A stretch of DNA of 53,163 nt from Mycoplasmatales bacterium (GTDB lineage: Bacteria > Bacillota_I > Bacilli_A > Mycoplasmatales > JABABV01). Positions 18,475 to 44,614 of this stretch are shown one piece after another (position 1 is the first letter of the stretch; each line of letters begins with the position of its first letter). The notes below the pieces were generated by a model. That model saw only the letters and a program-made list of their open reading frames with translations. It did not search any database and was not told the origin of the DNA. The stretch covers positions 1 to 53,163 of the forward strand of contig JABABV010000006.1 in assembly GCA_014238055.1 (NCBI GenBank). Direction: 5' to 3'. The position numbers and the translations under genes were made by a program.

Positions 18475-19554
18475 GTGATTTTTTTTATGCACGACGATAT
18501 TGATCCGCAACAAATTAAACAAGACAAACATTTAACTATTATCGAATCAACACCAAAAGATAGTTTTGAATTAAATAATTGTATTATTGATTTCAATACT
18601 TCCTTATCTTATCCAAAATTTACTTTAAAATGGAACGTTTTAACTGCCTCAAGGGAAAATTATAATTTTTTCCTAACTATCAACGAAGCTAAGATTGTTG
18701 TTCCTAATGTACCTAATAACAAAAATAGAATGGACTTAGTTAGTGATTTTATAACTAAAGGTAAACTAACTTTTACAAATTTTTATAAATTTAATTTAGT
18801 AGTGGCAAAATCTAGTTCTAAAGACCCAGGATCAGATCCAGACAGTTATAAAAAAACATGGACTAAAAACGTTACTTTTAATTATGATTATTTAATTAAA
18901 ATTCCTCAAGACGGAATTGAAGATTTTTCTAAATTAATACCTTATAGATTCGACACTTTAAGTGGATCTTTGAATTCTCCAGAAAATTATTTTTTATCTT
19001 TACGATTTCCTAATTTTAATTTTGAACATCCAGTAATAGTTAAAAATGTAGTAAATTTATTATTTGATTCTCGTTTAGAATATGGTATTTCTGGAAGTTT
19101 TGGATTTCAAAATATATCTGTTCCTAAATTAAAATTCAGAAGCGATTCTCACGATTCGGAATCAGGTCTTAAATTCTCAACAATTAACATTAATAATAAA
19201 AGCTATTTTGATAAAGATGATTTTAAAATAAAGATAGGTTTAAATCCTGATGGACCTTCTTTTTCTGGAATCGCCTTAAGTCCAGATAGCGGTGGTAAGA
19301 CAGGTTTTTTAAATTATTCTTTAATTTTTAGTAATAAATTGTTCAATATAACTTTTAATATTGAACATAATATTTCAGTAAAACATTCAATCACCGATGG
19401 ACCTAATAAAATGTATGATATTGAAGAAGCTAAAAATGACTATAATGGTAACGAATATGAAGATAAATTTTTATTCTTATTAAAAAATTTAAATATTATA
19501 TTGAGTCAACCTTTAAATGAAAACACTATTTGAAAATATAAAGAAAAAATATAA
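18475..19554 (+). CDS. Unrecognised protein, first of an overlapping pair
   Basis: 359-residue protein of unknown family. The start is taken as GTG 18475, 5 nt after a strong GGAGGTG site; ATG 18487 in the same frame is the alternative. There is no convincing signal peptide or membrane segment. The sequence is rich in short alternating hydrophobic stretches, Asn, Ser and aromatic residues, suggesting a beta-sandwich-like protein (for example SGSFGFQNISVPKLKF). It has two TGG and one TGA Trp codons, a higher TGG share than its neighbours. Its 3' end overlaps the next gene by 38 nt. Nothing links it to miaB or acpP. It could also be a secreted protein that lost its export signal. Confidence 0.7.
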
Positions 19555-20320: not shown

Positions 20321-20396
20321 AGGGGTATAGTTCAATTGGTAGAACATCAGACTTCAACTCTGAGTGTTGTGGGTTCGAGTCCTGTTACCCCTGCCA
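20321..20396 (+). tRNA. trnW: tRNA-Trp (anticodon UCA)
   Basis: Cloverleaf is complete: acceptor AGGGGTA pairs with TACCCCT, D arm GTTC-GGT-GAAC type, anticodon stem TCAGA/TCTGA with loop CTTCAAC (anticodon TCA), T loop TTCGAGT, discriminator G and encoded CCA at 20394-20396. Anticodon UCA reads UGA, and by wobble UGG, which explains the in-frame TGA codons. The T stem contains three G-U pairs (GTGGG with CCTGT). It is the only tRNA gene I find in the window. Confidence 0.97.
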
Positions 20397-39758: not shown

Positions 39759-41432
39759 ATGAAAATCAATAACAAAGAGTGGAATGATGGCGCAGCCCAT
39801 TTATTAACTTTTGCAATTAAAAAAATTTGAAAAGATGCCGAACTAATTTTAAGCTTCAGCAATGAAGAAACTTTTTATTGTGATTTTAAATTTAGTAATC
39901 CCGTTTCTCAAAATGATTTTAAAGTTATCGAAAAACAAATGAAAAAAATCGTTGGTGGAGCTTACAAATTAATCCATAACGGTAATAATGAAATTTATAA
40001 CTGAGAATTAGTTGACCATATTAATGGTCAATGTGATACTAACAATTCTATCGCTAACACTAATCTTTTAAAAAATTATAAATTATTATCTTTGGCAGGT
40101 GCTTATTTAAACAACGATAGTAGTTTAGAACAAGTTACTAGAATTCATGGAGTAGCACGTGCTAACACACAAGAATTAAACGATTTTTTAAATATCTTAA
40201 AAGAACGTAAAGAACGTGATCATCGTAATATTGGTAAAGAGTTAGGTATTTTTACTTTTTCACCATTATCAGGAAAAGGTTTTCCGATTTGATTACCAAA
40301 CGGTTTTATCGTTCGTGAAGAAATTAAAAAATTCGTAACTTCAAAAGAACGTAAATATAATTTTACAGAAGTTATAACTCCATCTTTAGGATCAATTGAC
40401 TTATATAAAACTAGTGGTCATTGAGATCATTATAAAGATGATAATTATCCTATAATAGAATTAGATAAAGAGCAATTGATGTTGCGTCCAATGACTTGTC
40501 CTCATCATTGTATTATTTATAAAAAAAGTAATCATTCTTACAAAGATTTACCAATCCGCCTTTCTGAACATGCAAAATTATATCGTTACGAATCTTCAGG
40601 TTCTCTTTCAGGACTAGAACGTGTTCGTGCAATGGTTTTAACTGATGCTCATATTTTTGCTCGTGTCGACCAAATTAGAGACGAATTTAAACATGCTTAT
40701 AAATTAATTAACGAATGTTTAGAAGCGTTCAACATTGAAATCGATTACATTTCTTTATCATTAAGAGATCCCGAAGATAAAGAAAAATTCTATGACGATG
40801 ATGAAATGTGAAACAAAGGGGAAGTTCTTTTAGAAGATTTACTTAAAGAACTAAAAGTAAATTATAAGAAAATGACTGGAGAAGCTGCTTTTTATGGTCC
40901 TAAATTAGATATCCAAATTAAAACTGCTCTTGGGAGAGAAATCACTGTTTCAACATTACAATTAGATTTCTTATTACCTAATAAGTTTGAATTAGAATAC
41001 ACTAATAAAGACAACGTTAAAGAACGTCCAGTTATGATTCATCGTGGTTTAATCGGGACGTATGAAAGGTTTGTCGCTACTTTATTAGAACAAACTAAAG
41101 GTGCTTTACCACTTTGATTATCTCCATTACAAGTGCAAATTATTCCTGTTAGTCGTGCCGAATCTCATTTAGAGTATTGTCAAAAAATTAAAGCTGCTCT
41201 TAAAGAAGATAATATTAGAGCTGACATTGACGTTCGCGAAGAACGTTTAAGTTATAAAATGCGCCAAGCACAAACTAAAAAAATTCCTATTCAATTAATA
41301 ATTGGTGATCAAGAAGTTGAAAGCCAAACTATTAATTATCGTCTATATCAAAAAACTGATAGCCATGTTTTAAACATTCAAGAGTTTATTCAAAAAATGA
41401 AAAAATCAATTAATCAAAAATGTCCGTTTTAA
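39759..41432 (+). CDS. thrS: Threonyl-tRNA synthetase with degenerate editing domain
   Basis: 557-residue class II synthetase, shorter than the usual 640 or so. The catalytic core is intact: [20 protein letters not shown] (zinc Cys), [22 protein letters not shown] (zinc His), [15 protein letters not shown] and [14 protein letters not shown] (zinc His), then the anticodon-binding domain. The N-terminal TGS domain is missing. The editing domain starts at once with DGAAHLL, where active enzymes have HxxxH, and its second half lacks the C-x3-H segment. ATG 39759 is 2 nt after tpiA. Its 3' end overlaps coaX by 13 nt. Confidence 0.95.
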
Positions 41433-42142
41433 TTGATTTAGGTAATAGTTTTTTAAAACTAGCTATCGTAGACGAAAAAAATAAAATTATTAACGTTAAA
41501 AAAATCAAATTAGAAGATCATAAAAAAGATAATATTAAAACAGAAATAGTTAATCACTTGGCTGATATAAAAACTACTAATAAAAAAATAATAATTAGTT
41601 CTGTTAACAACAAATGAAATGATTTTGTAAAAAATATTTTCATTAGTGATGATCTGAAATGATTAAATTTTAATGATTTTACTAAACTTAATTTTCCTAA
41701 TAAAAGTGAAACTGGGATCGATTTATTATGTTTAGGAGCAGCTGTTTTAAATCAAAAAAATACTTTAATAGTATCTTTCGGAACAGCGACAACTTTCACA
41801 TTATGAAACGATAACAACTTATTGGGAGCAATTATTTCTCCTGGTGCTTGAACTGCTTTTAAAGGATTAACAAAATCAGCATCTTTAATTAAAGATACTA
41901 TGAAAATTAATTTTAAAACTAAATTAGGAGTTATCGGTAGCGATACTAATAGCGCTATCAACATTGGAACTTTTAAAGCGCATGCTCTTATGAGTGAAGC
42001 TATCATAAAAGATATCCAATCAAAACACTCAATCAGTAATATTATTTTTACTGGCGGAGGTTTAGATAACATAAAACCTTATTTAAAAGGTGATTATAAA
42101 ATTAATGAAAATTTAATATTTGAAGGAATGTTAAATTTATAA
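41420..42142 (+). CDS. coaX: Type III pantothenate kinase
   Basis: 240-residue enzyme of the ASKHA fold that phosphorylates pantothenate, first step to coenzyme A. It has the phosphate-1 motif [22 protein letters not shown] (active-site Asp), VSFGTATTF and GAIISPGAW (Trp by TGA), and TGGGL near the C-terminus. Together with coaE it supplies CoA for acpP and metabolism. ATG 41420 lies inside thrS. An 18-bp hairpin follows its stop. Confidence 0.92.
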
Positions 42143-42159
42143 TTAAAGATTAAAAAAGG

Positions 42160-42203
42160 AAAACCTCACTCTTAAGTTATATATTACTTGAGAGTGAGGT
42201 TTT
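42160..42203 (+). terminator. Hairpin after coaX that contains the ribosome-binding site of the next gene
   Basis: Arms 42160-42177 and 42186-42203 pair over 18 bp with one G-U wobble and an 8-nt loop, then a T-rich stretch (TTTATTTTTG). It looks like a terminator for the thrS-coaX transcript. The right arm also contains GAGGT (42196-42200), the only ribosome-binding site for the TTG start at 42208. Confidence 0.8.
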
Positions 42204-42207
42204 ATTT

Positions 42208-44250
42208 TTGAAGATAAATCAACAAACAGAATTCAATGAATGTGGTTTGCTAATTTTGCAATCTTTATATAAATTTTTTTATCACAAAAAAATCAGTTTG
42301 TCTTTTTTGCATTCGTTATCTGATTTAAAAGATAATGGCATTTCTCTAAAAGAAATGGTTAATTTAGGCGCAATGATCGGTATTAAAATTGTTTTTTATA
42401 AAATGGATAAGCAAGAATTCAATAATTATATGATCATTAATCCAATGATCAGTTTAATTAAAACCGATTCACAACAACATTTTGTTATAGTTTATAAAAA
42501 GAATAATAAATATATTTATTATTCAGATCCAGAAACAGGAAAAAATTATAAAGTTAAACGAGATAGTCAGTTTAGTAAAAAAATGATCTATATTTTTGGG
42601 ATTGTTGCTAAAAACAATTCAATCATTTTAAAAAATAAAATAAAAAATACTGTAGTTGAATTTACGAAAGAATATTTTAGTGATTTAATAATTGTTTTTT
42701 TAATTAATATTATTTTAATATCTTTAACTATCTTTGCCTCTATTTTTAGTAAAGTTTTAATTGATTATATTATTCCAAATAAATTGATAATTAATTTATT
42801 AATCATTAGCGCTTTTTTTGTCATGATCCATTTATTTAAAAATATAGTAACTTTTATTCAAAGTCGTATTTTGCAAAATATATTACTTAATTTTCATGCT
42901 AAATTATATCAAAAATTTTTATTAAATTTAGATAAAAAAGATTATAACTTTAATAATAATTTCAAAGATAGTAGTATCATTAGAAAAACCCAATTAATAG
43001 GCGTTGTTAGTAATTTCATTGTCGTTAAAATAATTACATTATTCTCAAATATATTTTTATTTATAGCTTTATTTATTTTTTTATTTTTTATCTTTAATAT
43101 TTTTGCTCTAGTTCTTTTGATATTTTTATGTTTATTTTTATTAATAAACACGTATTTAAAATTTAATAGCGAATCTTTAATAAAAATTCAACAAAATAAT
43201 ATTAAAGAAGAATTGAACAATCGATTACCTTTAATTTATTTAAGAAAGAATTTAAAAACTGGTAATAAACATAAATTTATAAAAGATGTTTGATGGAAAA
43301 GTTTTGTAAAATTACAAAATAATACATTAAATATAATTTCATTCAATAACAAAAGAACTTTATTAAACGATTCTTTTATTGTTATTATAAACTTTTTATT
43401 CATTACAGTTTCTTCAATTTTAATAATCAAAGAAAATCTTTCAACAGGAACTATAATAATCATAATTAGTGTATTAAGCTTCATGTGAAATCCTCTTACT
43501 TATTTTAGTAATTTTATAAATTCTTTAAATAAAGATATTTTAAATTATAATGAAGTTAGCAAAATTTTAAACGCACCAAATGAAGACATTAACAAAAATG
43601 GATTTGCAATTAAAAAGATAACTAAAATTTCTATAATAAAACTAAATTTTTCTTATAATCAAAAAACTATATTTAAAAATATGAATTTATTAATTGATAA
43701 ACATTTATTTATAAATGCTAAAAATGGTACTGGAAAATCTACTTTATTAAGAATAATTTCTGGAATTGAAAAAACAATTAAAACTATTAAAATCAATAAT
43801 CAATATTTAGAAAATATAAATTTACAACATTATCGACAAAATATTATGTTACTAACTAACCAATACGATTTTATAAATCAATTAATATCAGAATTAAAAG
43901 ATCCTCAAAAATCTAAATATTGATTTAGTTTGTTCGCTAAATATCATATGTTAATAATTTTTAAAAACGCTAAAATAAATTTATTAAAGATAACCAAAAA
44001 TAATTACCATAATTTATCTTTAGGGCAAAAACAAATTTTAAATTTTTTAATTTTATTCAAAAAACTATATTTATTAATCTTAATCGACGAAGTTTTAAGT
44101 AATGTTGAATATAAAATAAATCATTTATTATTCTCTATTTTATTGAAATTTCAAAAAGATGCTTTAGTAATCATTGCTAGTCATCACAAAAACCCTAATC
44201 CACAAAAAATTAAACAATTTAATTTTAAGGAGTTCTATGATATCGAATAA
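42208..44250 (+). CDS. C39-peptidase-containing ABC exporter (bacteriocin/peptide type)
   Basis: 680-residue protein combining three domains. An N-terminal C39 cysteine protease has Q6, C12, H91 and D107 in the expected order (QTEFNECG; QQHFVIV; SDPETGK). About six membrane helices follow in residues 145-460. The C-terminal ATPase has Walker A AKNGTGKST (504-512), signature LSLGQ (603-607), Walker B LILIDE (D627, E628) and H-loop H659. Such exporters cut a leader after a double-glycine and export the peptide. The TTG start is fixed by the need to keep Q6/C12 and by GAGGT 7 nt upstream. TGA Trp codons are read through. No substrate gene is visible nearby. Confidence 0.88.
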
Positions 44251-44614
44251 TAAAAATCGTAATTATATTTTATTTTTAATGATTTGCATAACTCAAATAA
44301 CTTTTTTAATATTAAGCTTCACAATTAAATGTAAAACTGTTTATAATACTTCTATAACAGATGATGCAAACAACAATACTTTTCTTTTAAGTGATTCAAA
44401 AAATTTATATAAATTAACGAAAAACAGCACTATAAAGATTTTATTTACGCAAGCAAAAGTTATTGTTTATGCTAATGTTGGAAATTATCAGAAAATTACA
44501 AATAATCAATATTATGTTATTATATATACTACTCATAAATATTTATTAAATGATACTACAACTAGTGTAAAAGTAATTTATGGAAGTACTAAATTAATAA
44601 AAATAATCTTTTAA
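44237..44614 (+). CDS. Small membrane-anchored partner of the C39 exporter
   Basis: 125-residue protein with one N-terminal membrane helix (about residues 10-29, ILFLMICITQITFLILSF) and an outward-facing domain of about 90 residues with alternating hydrophobic residues. It starts inside the end of the exporter gene (14-nt overlap) with AAGGAGT upstream, so the two are coupled. No double-glycine leader is seen, so it is not an obvious substrate. A role as accessory or periplasm-side adaptor is inferred from position and topology only. Confidence 0.7.
   Translation: MISNNKNRNYILFLMICITQITFLILSFTIKCKTVYNTSITDDANNNTFLLSDSKNLYKLTKNSTIKILFTQAKVIVYANVGNYQKITNNQYYVIIYTTHKYLLNDTTTSVKVIYGSTKLIKIIF

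Follow-up and report, generated by a model that had tools for sequence, protein, structure and literature searches.

Mollicutes have few transcription regulators, and the question addressed here is how they keep seldom-needed genes quiet within long gene runs. Elsewhere, the expression platforms of riboswitches and ribosomal protein leaders are of the terminator or the sequestor type, controlling either read-through or access to the ribosome-binding site (SD). In phage T4, the SDs of genes e, soc, 49 and I-TevI are sequestered in long early transcripts and accessible in late ones, whose start lies within the hairpin, and for gene e the masked long early transcripts yield about 100-fold less lysozyme (PMC3014915). 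Promoters of M. gallisepticum consist of TATAAT with no -35 element, and its hairpin terminators are about 0.95 efficient (PMC4245973).

The locus described here lies in a window of 53,163 nucleotides (the whole stretch of DNA analysed), where a stable hairpin lies in the junction between coaX and an ABC exporter of the C39-peptidase type, enclosing the SD of the latter. As at T4 gene e, mRNA from upstream would contain both arms and mRNA starting past the left arm would be open. Unlike gene e, the hairpin has a terminator tail, ends a housekeeping run and is cellular, and an internal promoter is only suspected. Because that candidate promoter was examined as sequence only, the likeness is one of working rather than of membership. 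The hairpin shares with the M. gallisepticum type of Mollicutes terminator a stem with an A/T base, a T-run, a position just after the stop of the last gene and no need for Rho, and differs in its longer stem and in a right arm that doubles as an SD. A single hairpin governing read-through or SD access also recalls the riboswitch and ribosomal protein leader platforms, from which the exporter leader differs in showing no aptamer, alternative fold or Rfam family over threshold; an L21 leader was found in the same genome. If the right arm of a terminator also serves as the SD of the next gene, a single short element would block read-through mRNA at two levels.

Genome and gene assignments

The genome (G000, 845 kb) has 25-29% GC in the stretches read and uses TGA as a tryptophan codon. 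Stretches totalling about 565 of the 845 kb were sampled, of which 554 kb were analysed. Among the genomes compared, no other belongs to the same family, and the closest match to its glycyl-tRNA synthetase (55-60% identity) is in another family of the same order; the attribution to Spiroplasma made in the first-pass annotation is therefore not established. ARAGORN called a tRNA-SeC with anticodon tca at 20321-20396 of the window, which, given that TGA is read as Trp, is in all likelihood the tRNA-Trp that decodes UGA.

The exporter matched NF045998 with E 2.8e-114 and 383 bits over residues 5-662, missing the curated equivalog cut-off of 500 bits, and Peptidase_C39 with E 3.9e-17. NF045998 is by far its best family, of which it would appear to be a distant member or a sister group. 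The alignment shows conservation of Q6, C12, H91 and D107, of the signature SxGQ and of the Walker B DE. The TTG start proposed in the first-pass annotation is correct, since M1 occupies the same column as the start codons of homologues in 28 of 29 loci and Q6, C12, H91 and D107 are invariant; no other in-frame ATG, GTG or TTG was present between 42154 and the codon for Q6. Small membrane proteins resembling the MAG1140 type come after the exporter in most of the relatives checked, as they do here. The highest-ranking promoter-like site of the 38-48 kb region of the window lies inside the MAG1140 gene (TTCACA-18-TATAAT, 44318-44347, with TATAAT at 44341-44346 on the plus strand); it could be a candidate start for the run from ybeY to rpoD, independent of the exporter.

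Table 1. Features of the coaX-exporter junction and masking hairpins elsewhere in the genome. Positions are those of the window unless preceded by C76.
Feature	Position	Strand	Remarks
coaX, type III pantothenate kinase	41420-42142	+	Pfam Pan_kinase E 4e-24; TIGR00671 over cut-off
TATAAT, consensus -10 candidate	42138-42143	+	overlaps coaX stop codon; enriched word of the genome
AAAGG, SD-like stretch	42155-42159	+	immediately 5' of left arm; no start codon behind; from motif search
Stem	left arm 42160-42177 / right arm 42186-42203	+	18 pairs, 6 G-C, one T-G pair (42173-42190)
Left arm	42160-42177	+	includes ACCTC, complement of SD
Loop TATATATT	42178-42185	+	8 bases; carries TATATT, weak -10 candidate
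Right arm	42186-42203	+	TTTT at end, then ATTTTT (terminator tail)
GAGGT, exporter SD	42196-42200	+	wholly paired inside stem
C39-peptidase ABC exporter (Mbov_0121 family)	42208-44250	+	TTG start, 680 aa; NF045998, Peptidase_C39
MAG1140-family membrane protein	44237-44614	+	NF045999 36.6 bits, cut-off 35; overlaps exporter end
ybeY, dgkA, cdd, era, glyS, dnaG, rpoD	3' of MAG1140 gene		names read from ORF sequences
comEA masking hairpin	about C76:79126-79185	minus	L039
Metalloprotease masking hairpin	C76:149672-149719	minus	L043; TATAAT in loop
metK masking hairpin AAACCTCTTC...GAGGTTTTTATTATG	upstream of C76:212124	minus	L046
Masking hairpin before 1455-aa FtsX-type permease	C76:259644-259682	minus	L048; TTG start

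The hairpin between coaX and the exporter

The junction comprises 65 bases only, with coaX as the final gene 5' of the hairpin. A 121-nt fold containing the hairpin reached -35 kcal/mol (z = -6.4), a value that 0 of 200 shuffles equalled, and the hairpin ranks top among the terminator-like sites in 38-48 kb of the window. It has the form of an intrinsic terminator, with a G+C-containing stem and a T-run directly after it (3' tail ATTTTTG), and it sequesters the SD in full, at an opening cost far over the background. The first-pass description of an 18-bp stem with a terminator-like tail, holding in its right arm the exporter's only SD, was thus confirmed from the sequence. No near match to either arm elsewhere exceeded the reversed-pattern control in the search for a trans-acting RNA. 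The AAAGG stretch before the left arm also occurs in the comEA leader according to the motif search, and a function can be ascribed to it only tentatively.

The cost of opening the SD was surveyed for 430 SD-bearing genes in the 554 kb, with dinucleotide shuffles as controls. An Rfam search found no 16S rRNA in the genome, so the anti-SD sequence is not directly readable. Against a background median of 1.97 kcal/mol, the exporter SD required 14.1-14.5 kcal/mol in RNA with the left arm and 1.7-2.3 kcal/mol in RNAs beginning at 42178-42193. Costs of at least 9 kcal/mol were found for 8 of the 430 genes (0.8 in shuffles), or 7 without ORF C76:188647, which was excluded as spurious because it spans a stretch resembling tRNA genes in antisense. 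At thresholds of at least 10 and at least 12 kcal/mol, there were 5 and 3 genes, respectively, against 0.2 and 0.0 in shuffles. Since the excess over shuffles holds at all three thresholds, the exporter mask is far beyond chance and is one of several in the genome.

With little better than even confidence, we favour the reading that the hairpin is a combined insulator, serving both as the intrinsic terminator of the thrS-coaX run and as a translational mask on the exporter. Polymerases arriving from upstream would mostly halt in the T-run. Any read-through mRNA would bear both arms, leaving the SD locked by about 14 kcal/mol, and the exporter would consequently not be produced from the housekeeping mRNA. 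Its translation would be restricted to mRNA without the left arm, whether started or cut in the loop or right arm, or to occasions when the stem is opened; without the left arm, the SD would be open to the genome-average degree. What is observed is the anatomy, the energies, a frequency of masks above chance and the recurrence of the design at further operon junctions of the genome; from these we infer termination, silencing and the origin of the productive mRNA. The earlier proposal that one element both stops read-through and hides the start therefore stands as regards the terminator form and the severity of the mask, with the stopping and silencing themselves being predicted.

Promoters at the junction

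TATAAT is enriched 5' of operon-leading genes in this genome (103 occurrences, compared with 63.6 in shuffles); the word carries a TG extension, and a -35 box is lacking. As promoters here are of this -10-only kind and one such word stands at the end of coaX, with the weaker TATATT in the loop, the first-pass statement that there is no visible independent promoter between coaX and the exporter is wrong as it was put. The TATAAT precedes the start codon by about 70 bases, inside the usual range for the genome. A stop codon within or touching TATAAT was found for 21 of 524 genes.

Transcription from this TATAAT would start near 42150 and place the whole hairpin in the leader. This counts against the insulator reading, as the only consensus -10 nearby (42138) sits upstream of the hairpin and would give a completely masked mRNA. 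It is also the basis of a second explanation, unlikely in our judgement though it deserves weighing, in which the exporter is transcribed from a promoter of its own and the hairpin acts as an attenuator, to be opened in response to a signal by a ribosome waiting at AAAGG, by a protein, by a helicase or by RNase III cleavage. Such a conditional leader would suit the ordinary spacing of the -10 site and the element ATTAAAAA(A)GGAAAACCTC, which is common to the exporter and comEA leaders and which, with a matching hairpin, was found at these two places only in the 554 kb sampled. However, 43% of upstream regions have an equally good -10 site even after shuffling, and 18 bp makes for a very stable stem if the element is to act as a switch. 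The exporter leader showed neither an aptamer or alternative fold nor a leader peptide, and nothing at the hairpin rose above an Rfam gathering score.

For the insulator reading, the site of interest is instead the TATATT in the loop, which would give mRNA from about 42191, without the left arm. The word is not enriched as a promoter (58 against 60 in shuffles), which counts against this reading. The test for internal promoters, made on sequence alone, returned TATATT for the exporter loop and the enriched TATAAT for the metalloprotease loop. None of the candidate promoters at the junction can so far be taken as established to yield an open exporter SD.

Other masked genes in the genome

The highest opening cost among the masked genes belongs to comEA (15.3 kcal/mol), which is the first gene of a comEA-comEC-holA run located immediately downstream of pfkA-pyk. 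Behind the exporter come a MYPU_1760-type HExxH metalloprotease (12.4 kcal/mol), a surface protein whose gene stands after trmB, and metK (SD GAGGT, 11.7 kcal/mol). Weaker masks were found at a lipoprotein (9.7), an FtsX-type permease (9.2) and a GTG-start ORF at 18475 of the window (9.0 kcal/mol). The identity of comEC was obtained by Pfam and NCBIfam searches and that of the metalloprotease is also supported; the other masked genes were named by reading their sequences. A SAM-responsive leader was considered for metK and rejected, as the locus holding this gene gave no Rfam match.

At comEA, the exporter, the metalloprotease and metK, the design is the same: a terminator-like hairpin takes its right arm and T-run from the SD and the T-rich spacer that goes with it. 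Housekeeping genes precede three of the four strongest masks (pyk, coaX and trmB being those before comEA, the exporter and the metalloprotease, respectively). The comEA leader ATTAAAAAGGAAAACCTCCC...GGGGAGGTTTTTTTATG resembles the exporter leader ATTAAAAAAGGAAAACCTCAC...GTGAGGTTTTATTTTTG, the left sides being nearly identical, and there was no third leader of this type in the sampled 554 kb. The FtsX-type permease has a masked SD without a T-run, so masking and termination are not always coupled, a point against the insulator reading. In its favour, SD-like motifs are scarce in other terminator arms of the genome: of 38 such arms, 3 carry one, and among these 3 is the coaX-exporter hairpin read on the other strand. 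The overlap of exporter start and terminator, which the first-pass annotation had called unusual, is so for a single gene, but not for this genome, where strong SD masks of the terminator type number at least four. What is new here is that the exporter belongs to a small set of SD masks that includes the DNA-uptake operon. That the design recurs at comEA-comEC offers a testable account of why natural DNA uptake and peptide export might seem silent in bacteria of this kind.

Comparison with relatives

The homologues of the exporter reach no more than 32% identity with it, and strong SD masking was seen at none of 89 homologous loci (29 + 60). The stem, whose retention in relatives the first-pass annotation had made a test of its proposal, is accordingly not kept among these distant homologues, a result that weighs against the insulator reading. 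No other genome checked has coaX adjoining the exporter, as judged by eye from listed positions, the nearest pair being about 11 kb apart. In a genome of another family (G231), comEC follows valS in the same layout, with a TTG start and a terminator-type hairpin CTCCCCATTT...AAATGGGGAGTTTTT at C1 about 108185 (L196). The comEA SD is moderately masked in 2 of 30 comEC loci of relatives, at 10.9 (L237) and 9.6 kcal/mol (L238), and masking of comEA is possibly a theme of competence operons. Strong masks as a general feature of Mollicutes were rejected: in the sampled parts of four other genomes, opening costs of at least 9 kcal/mol were found for 2 genes against 0.7 expected (G231), 1 against 1.0 (G165), 0 (G307) and 0 (G285). 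As none of these shows a clear excess, the excess is clear in G000 only.

The homologous exporters without a hairpin, like the shortness of the junction, would agree with an accident of compaction, in which an ordinary terminator happens to have an arm that is the next SD, and production of the exporter is low and constant, with nothing regulated. The SD with its T-rich spacer already resembles half a terminator, and such an overlap would therefore arise easily. We nevertheless think this quite unlikely, since this genome has more strong SD masks than its shuffles, and most of the strongest belong to accessory or surface genes that come after housekeeping genes.

Distinctly improbable, in our view, is an extension of the masking idea to a post-transcriptional regulon, whereby comEA-comEC-holA, the C39 exporter and surface proteins would all be silent in read-through mRNA and jointly activated by a common unmasking event. 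It is highly improbable that the hairpin acts as an operator bound by a protein, in the manner of a CIRCE-like heat-shock element, rather than as an RNA device: it contains half-sites CACTC...GAGTG and CIRCE-like elements exist in the genome, but it fails as a CIRCE/HrcA operator (TTAGCACTC-N9-GAGTGCTAA), with 20 bases between the half-sites instead of 9 and different flanks, whereas the CIRCE-like sites of the genome fit TTAGCACT-N9-AGTGCTAA.

These CIRCE-like elements (at most 2 mismatches) are located at C76:14233, 8494 and 44059 on the minus strand (L036, L038), ahead of genes that resemble clpB, grpE and lon by sequence.
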